From: Rhizobium terricola | GTDB taxonomy: Bacteria; Pseudomonadota; Alphaproteobacteria; Rhizobiales; Rhizobiaceae | Reading direction: 5' to 3' | NCBI RefSeq assembly: GCF_012927355.1 | Contig: NZ_JABBGK010000001.1 | Coordinates: 124,001 to 188,000, forward strand | DNA length: 64,000 nucleotides | Shown: piece after piece, positions 20,280 to 57,276 of the stretch | How positions within the stretch are numbered: the first letter of the stretch is position 1 | Layout of the letters: each line of letters opens with the position of its first letter | Position numbers and translations under genes: made by a program | The notes under the pieces: generated by a model | Databases searched by the model: none | Seen by the model: only the letters and a program-made list of their open reading frames with translations | What the model was told of the DNA's origin: nothing

Positions 20280-20891
20280 TCAGAGGCCGACTGCAGCGCG
20301 CCGCTCGAGTTCGGTGAGATTGAGTTCGACGGTAACGGCACCGATCGGCTTCTCTTCCGCACCTTTCGTGACGGTGAAGCTGACCTGGCCGCGCCAGATC
20401 TTGGCTTCGTCATCCCATTCGGGGGCATCGATGAAGACGGCATCGCCTGCGACATTGAAGGTCTTCTGGAACTTGTCCTCGTCGCCCTGCCAGAAGTCGC
20501 TCGTCACCGAACTTTGGCCGACGTTCAGGCCGTTCTGGTCCATCACGAAGATTTCGGCATAAAGGCCGAGGGAGCGTCCCTGGATGCGGGCGAGATACAC
20601 CGAAAGCGGATTGGACAGCGTTGCTGCGATCAGGGGCTTGTCCTCCTTTTCGCGCTCGGCGCGCCACTGGGCGTCCAGCGTGTCGATCTCCGCCTGGGTG
20701 AGCTTCTGCTGCTTCTCGTTCTGCGCGTCGATCGAAATCTGGACGATTTCGGAATCGATGAACTTTCGCATGTCTTCGAGGACCGCGGGGGTGACCAGAG
20801 CCTTGGCGTTCGGCTCTGCCGTCTGTGCCAGGGCATGGGACATTGACAGCGCAAACATGGTTGCTGCCAGAACTGCCTTACGTGTTGCCAT
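20280..20891 (-). CDS. Secreted single-domain sensor-like protein (Cache/PDC-like)
   Basis: 203 residues. Residues 1-22 are a signal peptide ending ALA. The rest is soluble: long helices (about 33-90), then [31 protein letters not shown], a hydrophobic strand with MDQNG turn that resembles the core of periplasmic Cache/PDC sensor domains, and later [23 protein letters not shown]. There is no second membrane helix and no output domain. Lying directly upstream of the chemoreceptor, it may be a periplasmic ligand-binding partner; this is inference. The domain call rests on visual resemblance. Confidence 0.6.
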
Positions 20892-20930: not shown

Positions 20931-20945
20931 TTAAATTAGCGTTAA
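20931..20945. promoter_or_regulatory. CtrA box upstream of the chemoreceptor operon
   Basis: TTAA (20931-20934), seven bases, TTAA (20942-20945): an exact match to the CtrA binding consensus TTAA-N7-TTAA of alphaproteobacteria. It lies 40-54 bases upstream of the first gene of the operon. Motility and chemotaxis genes are known CtrA targets. Confidence 0.5.
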
Positions 20946-38603: not shown

Positions 38604-40042
38604 TGAAACGCAATCGCAAAGTGAAGATCCTCGCAACGCTGGGCCCGGCCTCGTCCGACGAAGCGATGATCCGCAAGCTCCATGAGGCGGGCGCAGACCT
38701 GTTCCGCATCAACATGAGCCATGCGAGTCACGATGTGATGCGCGACCTGATTGCCAAGATCCGCTCGGTCGAGGCCGCCTGCGGGCGCCCGATCGGCATC
38801 CTGGCCGACCTGCAGGGGCCGAAGCTGCGCGTCGGCAAGTTCGCCGCAACGACGGTCGAACTGAAGCCGGGCCAGACGTTCACCCTCGACAACAAGGACG
38901 AGCCGGGCGACAACACCCGCGTTTTCCTGCCCCATCCTGAAATCCTTCAATCCGTAAAGCCGGGTCACCGCCTGCTGATCGATGACGGCAAGCTGCACCT
39001 GCGCGCCGAGAAGTGCGACGGCAAGTCGATCGTCACGACCGTCGTTTCGGGCACGAAGATCTCCGACCGCAAGGGCGTCAGCCTTCCCGACACGCTGCTC
39101 GCGACCGGCGTGCTGACCGACAAGGACCGCGCCGACCTCGATGCAGTGCTGGCCACCAATGACGTCGACTGGGTGGCGCTCTCCTTCATCCAGCGTCCGG
39201 AAGATCTGGCGGAAGTCCGCAAGGTCGCCCGCGGCCGCGTCGGGCTGATGTCGAAGATCGAGAAGCCGCAGGCGATCGAGCGTATCGACGAGATCATCGA
39301 GCTGTCCGACGCGCTGATGGTGGCGCGTGGCGACCTCGGCGTCGAAATGCCGCTCGAGGCCGTTCCCGGGTTGCAGAAGCAGTTGATCCGCGCCTGCCGC
39401 CGCGCCGGCAAGCCGGTCGTCGTTGCCACCCAGATGCTGGAATCGATGATTTCGGCTCCGGTCCCGACCCGCGCCGAGGTGTCCGACGTGGCGACCGCCG
39501 TCTTCGAGGGCGCCGATGCGGTGATGCTGTCGGCCGAATCCGCCTCCGGCCAGTATCCGGTCGAGGCGGTCGCGACGATGGCGTCGATCGCCCGCACCGT
39601 CGAGCGCGAGCCGCATTATCCGGGCATCATCTACGCCCAGCGCGCCCAGCCGGAAGCGACCGGCGCCGACGCGATCTCGCTGGCCGCCCGCCAGATTGCC
39701 GAGACGCTGAAGCTGACGGCGATCGTGTGCTACACCTCTTCCGGCAATACGGGCCTGCGCGCGTCGCGCGAGCGTCCGGAGGTGCCGATCCTTGCGCTTT
39801 CTCCGGTCATCCAGACGGCGCGCCGCCTGTCGGTGGTCTGGGGCCTGCATTGCGTGGTGTCCGAAGAGCCGACCGATCTCGACGACATGGTGAACCGCGC
39901 CTGCCGGATCGTTGTCGAGGAAGAGTTCGGCAAGCCCGGCGACCGGGTGATCATTTCCGCCGGCGTGCCGCTCGGTACGCCCGGCTCCACCAACATGCTG
40001 CGCATCGCCTATATCGGCTCCGACGGCCTGTCCGGTATCTGA
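38603..40042 (+). CDS. pyk: Pyruvate kinase
   Basis: 479 residues, full length. RKVKILATLGPASSDEAMIRKL opens the barrel; MSKIEKPQAIERIDEII carries the catalytic Lys and Glu, and VARGDLGVEMPLEAVPGLQKQLI and MLESMISAPVPTRAEVSDVA are the standard active-site blocks. It makes pyruvate and ATP from phosphoenolpyruvate. Coupled to the DUF1036 gene by a one-base overlap. Confidence 0.97.
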   Translation: MKRNRKVKILATLGPASSDEAMIRKLHEAGADLFRINMSHASHDVMRDLIAKIRSVEAACGRPIGILADLQGPKLRVGKFAATTVELKPGQTFTLDNKDEPGDNTRVFLPHPEILQSVKPGHRLLIDDGKLHLRAEKCDGKSIVTTVVSGTKISDRKGVSLPDTLLATGVLTDKDRADLDAVLATNDVDWVALSFIQRPEDLAEVRKVARGRVGLMSKIEKPQAIERIDEIIELSDALMVARGDLGVEMPLEAVPGLQKQLIRACRRAGKPVVVATQMLESMISAPVPTRAEVSDVATAVFEGADAVMLSAESASGQYPVEAVATMASIARTVEREPHYPGIIYAQRAQPEATGADAISLAARQIAETLKLTAIVCYTSSGNTGLRASRERPEVPILALSPVIQTARRLSVVWGLHCVVSEEPTDLDDMVNRACRIVVEEEFGKPGDRVIISAGVPLGTPGSTNMLRIAYIGSDGLSGI

Positions 40043-40071
40043 CGTTTCCCCGTTGAAACACGACGCGAACC

Positions 40072-40095
40072 AAGCCGCCTCCGGGCGGCTTTTTC
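40072..40095 (+). terminator. Terminator of pyk
   Basis: AAGCCGCC (40072-40079), loop TCCG, GGCGGCTT (40084-40091), followed by TTT. Confidence 0.8.
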
Positions 40096-40123
40096 GTGGG
40101 CTTTCGCTCGCCTGTCGGAAGGC

Positions 40124-56199: not shown

Positions 56200-56715
56200 T
56201 CAGTTCGCGTTGAAGGCGGTCCGCAGCAGATCGAGCTGAGCCTGGACGCTGTTTTCGTTGTCCGGGACGATCGGCGCGTCGGAGGGGCGATAGATCTCGC
56301 GGTCGAGAAGGGCGATGCGGTTCTGGAGGCGCAGCGAACGCTCGACGAGGTCGCGGAAGGATTCCGGCAGATCGTTCCAGCCGGGGGCCTGACGGTCGAC
56401 GTTGAAGCCGTCGAGGCGGACCTTGCTCTTTTCCGAGATAACCTGGTCGCGGCTCATTTCGCCGTTGTTGACGGCGCGCTGCAGGAGCAGCCAGGAGGCC
56501 ATCTGCATAAGACGGGTGGTGAGGCGCATCGATTCCGCGGCGTAGAGGACAGATGCCATGCGGGGCAGAACCTTGGCGGCGGCGCGGCCCGGGCCATCGA
56601 GATAGGCGGCGGTTTCTTCGACCAGGCCCATGCCCTCGGCATAGGTCGCCTTGAACTGCGTCGATGCAGCGGCGCGTCCGGCAAAGCTCACAGTGTTCAA
56701 TCCGAGTTCAGACAT
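56200..56715 (-). CDS. rcdA: RcdA-like protein (DUF1465)
   Basis: 171 residues, helical, with the DUF1465 pattern: TYAEGMGLVEETAAYLDG, ESMRLTTRLMQMASWLLLQRAVNNGEMS and FRDLVERSLRLQNRIALLDREIYR. In Caulobacter the DUF1465 protein RcdA is the adaptor that brings the cell-cycle regulator CtrA and others to the ClpXP protease. It lies behind a perfect CtrA box (56835-56849), in line with the known feedback in which CtrA controls rcdA. Assignment rests on the family pattern; position of the acidic C-terminal tail fits too. Confidence 0.82.
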   Translation of the reverse strand: MSELGLNTVSFAGRAAASTQFKATYAEGMGLVEETAAYLDGPGRAAAKVLPRMASVLYAAESMRLTTRLMQMASWLLLQRAVNNGEMSRDQVISEKSKVRLDGFNVDRQAPGWNDLPESFRDLVERSLRLQNRIALLDREIYRPSDAPIVPDNENSVQAQLDLLRTAFNAN

Positions 56716-56834
56716 CGGTTCACCCCTGAATTACGCATCACTTTTACTGGGTAACGACATGGACGCTTGACTTGTTCCTGCCGCTTTTCATGGCCGTACG
56801 ATGCTACCAATACCCCAAATGCGCAAGCCGTTTA

Positions 56835-56849
56835 TTAAAGAAGGGTTAA
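56835..56849. promoter_or_regulatory. CtrA box upstream of rcdA
   Basis: TTAA (56835-56838), seven bases (AGAAGGG), TTAA (56846-56849): exact CtrA consensus, about 120-135 bases upstream of the rcdA start codon in an otherwise gene-free region. Confidence 0.62.
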
Positions 56850-56884: not shown

Positions 56885-56981
56885 CAAAAAAAGAGCCGCA
56901 AAAGCGGCTCTCAAGGTAAAACAGGGAGAAAAATCAGACGATCGCCATAAGGAGAAACGAACTGAATCCAGCATGGCCGGA
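56885..56981 (-). ncRNA. Candidate trans-acting small RNA between rcdA and DUF1192
   Basis: On the minus strand: a stem ATCCGGC/GCTGGAT around CAT (plus 56968-56984), then an unpaired region with TCTCCTT and TCTCCCT, both complementary to Shine-Dalgarno sequences, then a perfect terminator AGAGCCGC-TTTT-GCGGCTCT (plus 56892-56911) followed by seven T. A -10-like AATATA (plus 56988-56993) sits 12 bases downstream of a CtrA-like TTTA-N7-TTAA box (57006-57020). About 97 bases long. The layout is that of an Hfq-type antisense RNA; the rhizobial cell-cycle RNA EcpR1 is worth comparing, but identity is not claimed. Confidence 0.55.
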
Positions 56982-57005
56982 TGAAGCTATATTCGCTCAA
57001 AAGGC

Positions 57006-57020
57006 TTAACGGATAGTAAA
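57006..57020. promoter_or_regulatory. CtrA-like box (7 of 8)
   Basis: Minus strand TTTA (plus 57017-57020), seven bases, TTAA (plus 57006-57009). One base differs from the consensus. Its position relative to the AATATA at 56988-56993 fits a CtrA-activated promoter for the small RNA. Confidence 0.35.
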
Positions 57021-57081: not shown

Positions 57082-57276
57082 CTATACTTTGGGCTTGAAG
57101 AAGCTGTCGGCCGCGCGCTTGCCCGCTTCCTTGCGCTGACGCTCCTCAGTGAGTCGCGCAATCTCAGCCTCGAGGAGGCTGATCCGAGCGTTAAGTTCGT
57201 CGGCCGAGAGGAAGGAAAGGTCGCTGCCGATCTCGTGCGAAACGGGCTTCTTCGGCTTGTCCTCGTCGAAAATCAT
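57082..57276 (-). CDS. DUF1192 small protein
   Basis: 64 residues: MIFDEDKPKKPVSHEIGSDLSFLSADELNARISLLEAEIARL, then a charged helix. This is the DUF1192 pattern (LSVDELxxRIxxLxxEIxRL), found in alphaproteobacteria and of unknown function. A short coiled coil is likely. Its ATG overlaps the stop of the MFS gene upstream (ATGA), so the two are translationally coupled. Confidence 0.9.
   Translation of the reverse strand: MIFDEDKPKKPVSHEIGSDLSFLSADELNARISLLEAEIARLTEERQRKEAGKRAADSFFKPKV

Follow-up and report, generated by a model that had tools for sequence, protein, structure and literature searches.

A small RNA with a conserved CtrA-type promoter box upstream of rcdA in Rhizobium terricola and related families

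The window analyzed here, a stretch of 64,000 nucleotides of Rhizobium terricola DNA, contains on its minus strand a predicted small RNA (sRNA) gene that lies between a DUF1192 gene and rcdA (Table 1). We consider it probable that this sRNA is CtrA-activated and trans-acting, that it is made from its own promoter, and that it masks ribosome-binding sites via UCUCCCUGUUUUACC. It is an object of an ordinary kind, a conserved trans-acting sRNA that has already been detected in S. meliloti, and the part worth following is the deep conservation of its CtrA-type promoter together with its near-constant linkage to rcdA.

The locus had been pointed out in an earlier note, made from the letters of the sequence, as a transcript unit of about 97 bases that opens with a 7-bp stem and closes with a T-run terminator, and all of these elements are present: the window copy measures 97 nt (56982-56886), counted from the first base of hairpin 1 through the T-run, the initial stem includes one G-U pair, and a 9-bp stem precedes the T-run. 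The predicted RNA folds at -33.1 kcal/mol compared with -18.5 +/- 2.8 in shuffles (z = -5.2), and 0 of the 200 shuffles was as low. Within 2 kb, five terminator-like sites were counted versus 1.9 expected, the sRNA terminator being one of them. The two anti-Shine-Dalgarno stretches that had been described are both there, but only the second (TCTCCCT) is conserved, the first (TCTCCTT) being in a variable loop. By DNA search, the element was located in all 36 genomes of the genus, as well as in 1 of 24 genomes from outside it. Because of this match in the genus, and because the box, its spacing, hairpin 1, the CU segment, and the terminator are conserved, we take the sRNA to be real; conservation is what decides the matter.

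Table 1. Features of the sRNA locus in the window
Feature	Positions	Strand	Basis or remark
CtrA-type box TTTA-CTATCCG-TTAA (TTTA-N7-TTAA, 7/8)	57006..57020	minus	conserved as TTWA-N7-TTAA, near-constant spacing
-10-like hexamer AATATA	56988..56993	minus	sequence
sRNA gene, ~97-99 nt	56886..56984	minus	predicted; 5' end probably near 56982-56984
Hairpin 1, 5' end, 7 bp, ATCCGGC/GCTGGAT, one G-U pair, CAT loop	56966..56982	minus	folding
Hairpin 2 region, weaker; contains TCTCCTT (56955-56949)	56934..56965	minus	folding, alignment
CU-rich single-stranded segment UUUUUCUCCCUGUUUUACC, presumed pairing region	56915..56933	minus	TCTCCCT inside
Intrinsic terminator GAGAGCCGC-TTTT-GCGGCTCT, 9-bp stem and T-run	56886..56912	minus	folding
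Second CtrA-type box, perfect TTAA-N7-TTAA, between sRNA terminator and rcdA	56835..56849	minus	presumed rcdA promoter element
DUF1192 gene (PF06698), upstream neighbor	57082..57276	minus	Pfam
rcdA (DUF1465, PF07323), downstream neighbor	56200..56715	minus	Pfam
Ribosome-binding region of rcdA, GCGTAATTCAGGGGTGAACCGATG, with partial complementarity to the CU segment	56713..56736	minus	sequence

A CtrA-like box at the right distance upstream had been proposed for the window, and this held up, with the gap between box and hairpin 1 being nearly constant in relatives. We scored boxes by their match to TTAA-N7-TTAA upstream of the sRNA core, with stretches 100 nt further up as the control. A score of at least 7/8 was reached at 28 of the 29 genus loci versus 0 of 29 control stretches, and, among the matches listed, at 105 of the 116 loci of named Rhizobiaceae versus 0 of 116. 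Across the order, the initial search stretch gave 48/63 versus 1/63, and after it was widened, with the control widened equally, the box was found at 62 of the 63 loci and in 34 of 34 families, compared with 1 of 63 for the control, L092 being dropped from this count because its upstream sequence was too short. Shuffles of the same upstream stretches reached at least 7/8 in 5.4% of cases. Taking a conserved CtrA-type box at the promoter position as the criterion for the CtrA regulon, we found such a box. In the 64-kb window as a whole there are six box-like sites scoring 7 or 8 of 8, two of them within 186 nt at the sRNA locus, and the S. meliloti 4H41 copy has two perfect CtrA-type boxes at the locus. 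Separately, a perfect TTAA-N7-TTAA box at 20931-20945 of the window lies about 40 nt upstream of a 203-aa ORF (20280-20891, minus strand), which has a signal-peptide-like start and no Pfam match.

The gap from the box to hairpin 1 was 24 to 25 nt in 112 of 115 named loci (among the matches listed), in 23 of 27 genus loci, and in 34 of 49 order loci, a further 11 order loci having 29 to 31 nt; this count omits 20 loci (17 without a parsed hairpin and 3 without a box at the expected gap), and both spacing and column counts are favored by construction, as the box was placed by score and expected distance. The -10-like AATATA of the earlier note is present, but the -10 of the genus is variable. 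In named Rhizobiaceae the commonest -10 was TATTAC (54 of 115), and the -10 was located 11 nt after the box in 85 of 115, among the matches listed. That the window box matches at 7 of 8 positions and that its -10 is poor is a weak point of the CtrA-activated reading. Both loci found away from rcdA (L069 and L074) keep the sRNA and a 7/8 box, as would be expected for an independent CtrA-controlled gene. Conservation thus supports the proposed link to CtrA and the sRNA's own promoter, and the cell-cycle role that had been attached to them is something we infer.

The same evidence bears on whether the RNA is merely the processed 3' UTR of the DUF1192 mRNA, which the earlier note had named as the outcome that would speak against its proposal. 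The two share a strand, the predicted 5' end is 98 nt beyond the DUF1192 stop, and tblastn placed DUF1192 upstream and in the same orientation in 183 of 213 loci and elsewhere in 2 (the named part being among the matches listed). Such processing is disfavored by the conserved promoter and the near-constant gap between box and hairpin 1, as well as by a weak terminator-like hairpin (57048-57028) that intervenes; DUF1192 was also not found by tblastn in 28 of the 213 loci, many of which perhaps hold only a diverged or out-of-range copy. We regard this origin of the RNA as very unlikely.

Regarding the identity of the sRNA, the window gave no match to Rfam at gathering thresholds. In a permissive scan the full-length RF02356 (BjrC1505) model scored 27.8 bits, below its cut-off of 50, so the window copy is not a formal member, and RF00519 (suhB/MmgR) scored 24.4 bits against a cut-off of 41. 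The comparison with known sRNA families suggested earlier therefore ended below the cut-off in both cases, but judged by its sequence and position the window sRNA is a positional ortholog of BjrC1505. BjrC1505 is of Bradyrhizobium origin and was detected there; its source is reportedly Madhugiri et al. 2012. The two share a 5' hairpin, the CUCCCUGUU segment, the GAGCCGC terminator, the CtrA-type box, and the position directly upstream of rcdA. They differ in the second hairpin, where the arms GAGTGG...CCACTC of BjrC1505 correspond to UCAGAC...GUCUGA-like arms, and in the GACGCCUCCC of BjrC1505, which corresponds to UUUUUCUCCC, in the genus of the window as well as in the retrieved named Rhizobiaceae. 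Of 297 genomes from the order, 244 gave an RF02356 match, which exceeded the cut-off in 211, and none of the 14 control genomes gave one; by genus, RF02356 was present in 106 of the 123 searched; under the stricter filter of this order-wide search, the genome of the window gave no RF02356 match. The 5' end of the RF02356 model contains TTTA-N7-TTAA, and because the model spans this box, its first part is probably promoter and not RNA.

To this we added a model of our own (R1), made from an order-wide alignment without genus members (A2; 48 of 50 parsed order sequences, L057 and L058 being omitted). With R1 the window copy was the top match in the window (29.9 bits; E = 4.4e-5), and R1 recovered every locus supplied to it, 29 of 29 from the genus and 8 of 8 from the named set. 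The MmgR locus scored 22.2 bits, leaving the window copy a margin of 7.7 bits, and since this margin is modest, the orthology rests on synteny, i.e., the shared locus. A second R1 match in the window (40005-40097; 20.1 bits) resembles a plain terminator and is unrelated.

The RF00519 match runs through CUCCCU and the terminator part and would suit a paralog of MmgR. We consider such a paralogy extremely improbable, because 24.4 bits is below the cut-off, separate RF00519 copies of 65.2 and 50.7 bits exist elsewhere in the same genome, and the architecture and synteny fit BjrC1505. The best MmgR copy (G000:C1:123328-123398) is located 603 bases before the window start on the same strand as the sRNA, 57.5 kb from it, and 6S RNA is found 12.4 kb away on the opposite side.

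Within the alignments, TCCCTGTTTTACCTT is identical in all 29 genus rows, which were found by similarity and not by that string. In the Rhizobiaceae alignment (A1; 71 of 124 parsed sequences), 49 of the 71 rows were found with the CU segment as the search pattern, making constancy there uninformative, and the 22 genus rows are unaffected. Helix 1 stays paired despite changes in both of its arms (19 cells, a count that none of 500 shuffles attained), while two of five covariation measures were no better than shuffles (167/500 and 168/500), most pairs never varying. Parsing of the 213 loci left 19 without a hairpin or terminator and removed 20 repeats; L030, L056, L059, L100, L101, and L104 were dropped as the core regex was absent, L030 still having TCCCTGTTTTACCTT.

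The window sRNA is very probably orthologous to Sm84/SmelC671 of S. meliloti. A published table places Sm84 in the interval from SMc03988 to SMc03989, all three in forward orientation, and gives sizes of about 110 and 80 nt, which we take as predicted and observed; its authors predicted an ordinary sigma-70 promoter with a -35 (PMC2573895). It is the same as SmelC671, 100 nt at 2986421-2986520 of S. meliloti 1021 (PMC2873474). The strand order SMc03988>-sRNA>-SMc03989> is shared, and MmgR and 6S RNA are on matching sides and strands. Counted from hairpin 1 through the T-run, the copy in S. meliloti 4H41 is 100 nt long, equal to the reported SmelC671 length. The gap to 6S RNA is 12.4 kb in both 4H41 and the window genome and 14.2 kb in 1021 (published coordinates), and that to MmgR is 77 kb in 4H41, 57.5 kb in the window genome, and 60 kb in 1021. 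Length, strand order, and neighbors all agree in this comparison, in which 1021 entered with coordinates and not with sequence.

Relatives of SmelC671 have been listed from Rhizobiaceae to Bradyrhizobiaceae and Methylobacteriaceae, with ReC71 in R. etli (PMC3927594). Table 1 of a 2020 review gives SmelC671 without a promoter motif and with expression in nodule zone II, and the review names EcpR1 and GspR as the two cell-cycle-related sRNAs of S. meliloti (PMC7143759). Our literature search found no published function for SmelC671/Sm84 or the BjrC1505 group. The comparison with EcpR1 that had been suggested did not lead to kinship: the EcpR1 locus is divK-pleD/rpmG (PMC4414408), whereas that of the window sRNA is rcdA/DUF1192, and identity with EcpR1 or GspR is ruled out by locus. 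EcpR1 (SmelC291) resembles the present case in being an sRNA that is conserved among rhizobia and connected with the cell cycle, but it is described as ppGpp-induced and as targeting dnaA and gcrA via a GC-rich loop. CcnA of Caulobacter is different as well, being a 182-nt RNA at the replication origin for which its authors report no clear S. meliloti homolog.

The location beside rcdA, noted before as that of a CtrA-degradation gene, was confirmed in the window, where rpmE is located beyond rcdA, and is conserved far beyond this genome. All of the 30 top RF02356 loci are directly upstream of rcdA, compared with 0 of the 3 RF00519 loci of the window genome. A DNA-pattern scan of named genomes yielded at least 120 loci; in the 80 checked among the matches listed, rcdA was directly downstream in 71, and the other 9 end 5 to 249 bases past the core. 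Overall, 200 of the 213 loci with a parsed core have rcdA downstream in the same orientation (the named part among the matches listed). By set, the counts were 28/29 for the genus, 61/64 for the order, and, among the matches listed, 110/120 for the named genomes, before the addition of L075, in which rcdA was found in a longer sequence (199 to 200 of 213). There are two real exceptions, L069 (family f10) and L074 (f17), with no rcdA match in 1.8 to 2 kb downstream; from ORF reading and not a family search, their downstream genes appear phosphodiester-phosphodiesterase-like and response-regulator-like. The records of the remaining 11 of the 213 loci end 30 to 274 bases past the core. In the two exceptional families, the sRNA stands ahead of genes other than rcdA (records L321 in G044 and L322 in G051).

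CU-rich sRNA segments are known to cover ribosome-binding sites, and RcdA helps deliver CtrA to the ClpXP protease. We scored helices between the CU segment and gene leaders with a scheme of our own (G-C 3, A-U 2, G-U 0.5), the top class of at least 24 corresponding to 11 to 12 contiguous pairs. In the genus, 12 of 28 rcdA leaders fell in this class versus 0 of 28 for DUF1192 and 0 of 15 for rpmE, with 0 of 45 leaders of window ORFs (raw ORFs) and 1.2% of 840 shuffles as further controls. The named set gave, among the matches listed, 18/110 for rcdA versus 0/111 for DUF1192, 0/84 for rpmE, and 0/73 for MFS, these leader counts not being independent, as the sequences are related. Order-wide, the top class held 2 of 61 rcdA and 1 of 46 DUF1192 leaders, and a score of at least 20 was reached by 10 of 61 and 4 of 46, respectively, and by 7.5% of shuffles. 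In part of the genus, then, an uninterrupted helix of as many as 12 bases can form between the segment and the ribosome-binding site of rcdA, and the pairing is weak in most other families. The window helix has 6 pairs (one G-U), a two-base mismatch, and then 4 pairs; its RNAduplex energy of -16.8 was equalled by 3 of 45 window ORF leaders (raw ORFs, first ATG, uncurated). RNAduplex did not separate rcdA (-19.7) from DUF1192 (-19.2) in the named set, among the matches listed, and by itself is too permissive for ranking targets. In the search for targets overlapping Shine-Dalgarno sites that had been proposed, rcdA leaders stand out in Rhizobiaceae, but helices are weak in the window itself and in most other families. 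GTGATGCGT (56733-56741, minus strand), which immediately precedes the ribosome-binding site in the rcdA leader of the window, hardly varies within the genus.

One way of joining these observations is an incoherent feed-forward loop, in which CtrA would activate rcdA as well as the sRNA, which in turn would cover the rcdA ribosome-binding site, keeping RcdA low while CtrA is needed. Consistent with this are the second, perfect box before rcdA, the genus rcdA leaders in the top complementarity class with none among the leaders of the control genes, and the sequence GTAARACAGGG-N-ATG at rcdA in 6 of 7 genomes, which were chosen since most of their leaders were already known to fit; it was unique to rcdA in 4 of these. 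Pairing by a different stretch of the RNA is possible in family f35, between UUGACGCCUC and GAGGCGUUAA. However, the window rcdA pairing is weak, order-wide 2 of 61 rcdA leaders fall in the top class, and two families lack rcdA beside the sRNA, which slightly lowers the odds of the loop. We therefore judge it unlikely and put it forward as a testable proposal, not as the leading claim. Its order-wide form, by which CtrA would turn on rcdA together with an rcdA-silencing RNA and so delay its own destruction until the right moment, we likewise consider unlikely.

Alternatively, the sRNA may act in trans on targets other than rcdA, the box serving for timing only and the closeness to rcdA reflecting shared CtrA control; we would put the chances of this at about even. 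Within the genus the CU segment does not change, whereas rcdA leaders do; two families retain the sRNA at a site away from rcdA; and a leader of the form ACAGGGAG...ATG occurs in 18 of 22 genus genomes (up to 3 mismatches), belonging in the window genome to a CarD-like regulator gene. Matches of this kind are, however, ordinary ribosome-binding sites and hardly above controls: AACAGGGA ribosome sites numbered 147 versus 372 for three control letters in 6 genomes, or 1.19 times one third, which is hardly an enrichment, and were doubled only in the Shinella genome (28 versus 42). As a candidate target in the window genome, ctrA was unremarkable and was set aside (RNAduplex -16.3, equalled by 3 of 45 window ORF leaders). 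At G000:C13:354935-354957 we also observed a conserved CarD-like regulator leader, ACAGGGAGTTTTTGAAACGAATG, with about 8 bases complementary to the sRNA core.

For the preferred reading, a CtrA-activated sRNA that masks ribosome-binding sites, the course of events would be as follows. Sigma-70 RNA polymerase and CtrA~P would produce an sRNA of about 97 to 100 nt from its own promoter, CtrA~P probably activating from the conserved TTWA-N7-TTAA box at the -35 position. The transcript would end at the intrinsic terminator, and its U-tail would suit Hfq. Unpaired UCUCCCUGUUUUACC would then pair with purine-rich ribosome-binding sites and block translation, as its sequence and the mode of CU-rich sRNAs suggest. 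CtrA-dependence would give a cell-cycle-phased sRNA, for which the neighbor rcdA is one candidate target.

CtrA has been placed at rcdA before. Predictions put a CtrA site ahead of rcdA in S. meliloti (PMC3616915) and, in agrobacteria, ahead of atu3742, rcdA of these bacteria having more than one start site (PMC10469942); a comparative study also reports a CtrA site ahead of rcdA (PMC2877005). ChIP-seq in S. meliloti located CtrA binding at the rcdA promoter region, a signal not resolved to the sRNA promoter; rcdA is essential there and showed no significant response to CtrA depletion by qPCR and lacZ (PMC4433202). The passages of these reports that deal with CtrA at rcdA do not mention the sRNA. 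The words "ctra" and "rcda" are absent from the main text of PMC3927594, as are "srna" and "small rna" from PMC4433202, and in the literature searched we found no paper joining this sRNA with CtrA or rcdA. Within that literature, both the order-wide CtrA promoter and the hypothesis on rcdA appear to be new; the sRNA itself is already catalogued, and the conserved CtrA link and the possible action on the neighboring gene look new.

The CtrA ChIP signal at rcdA may accordingly stem in part from the sRNA promoter. If true, the feed-forward loop would help to explain why CtrA binds at S. meliloti rcdA without a net effect of CtrA depletion. On the reading proposed here, an sRNA present across much of an order would be connected with rcdA and with the circuit of CtrA.
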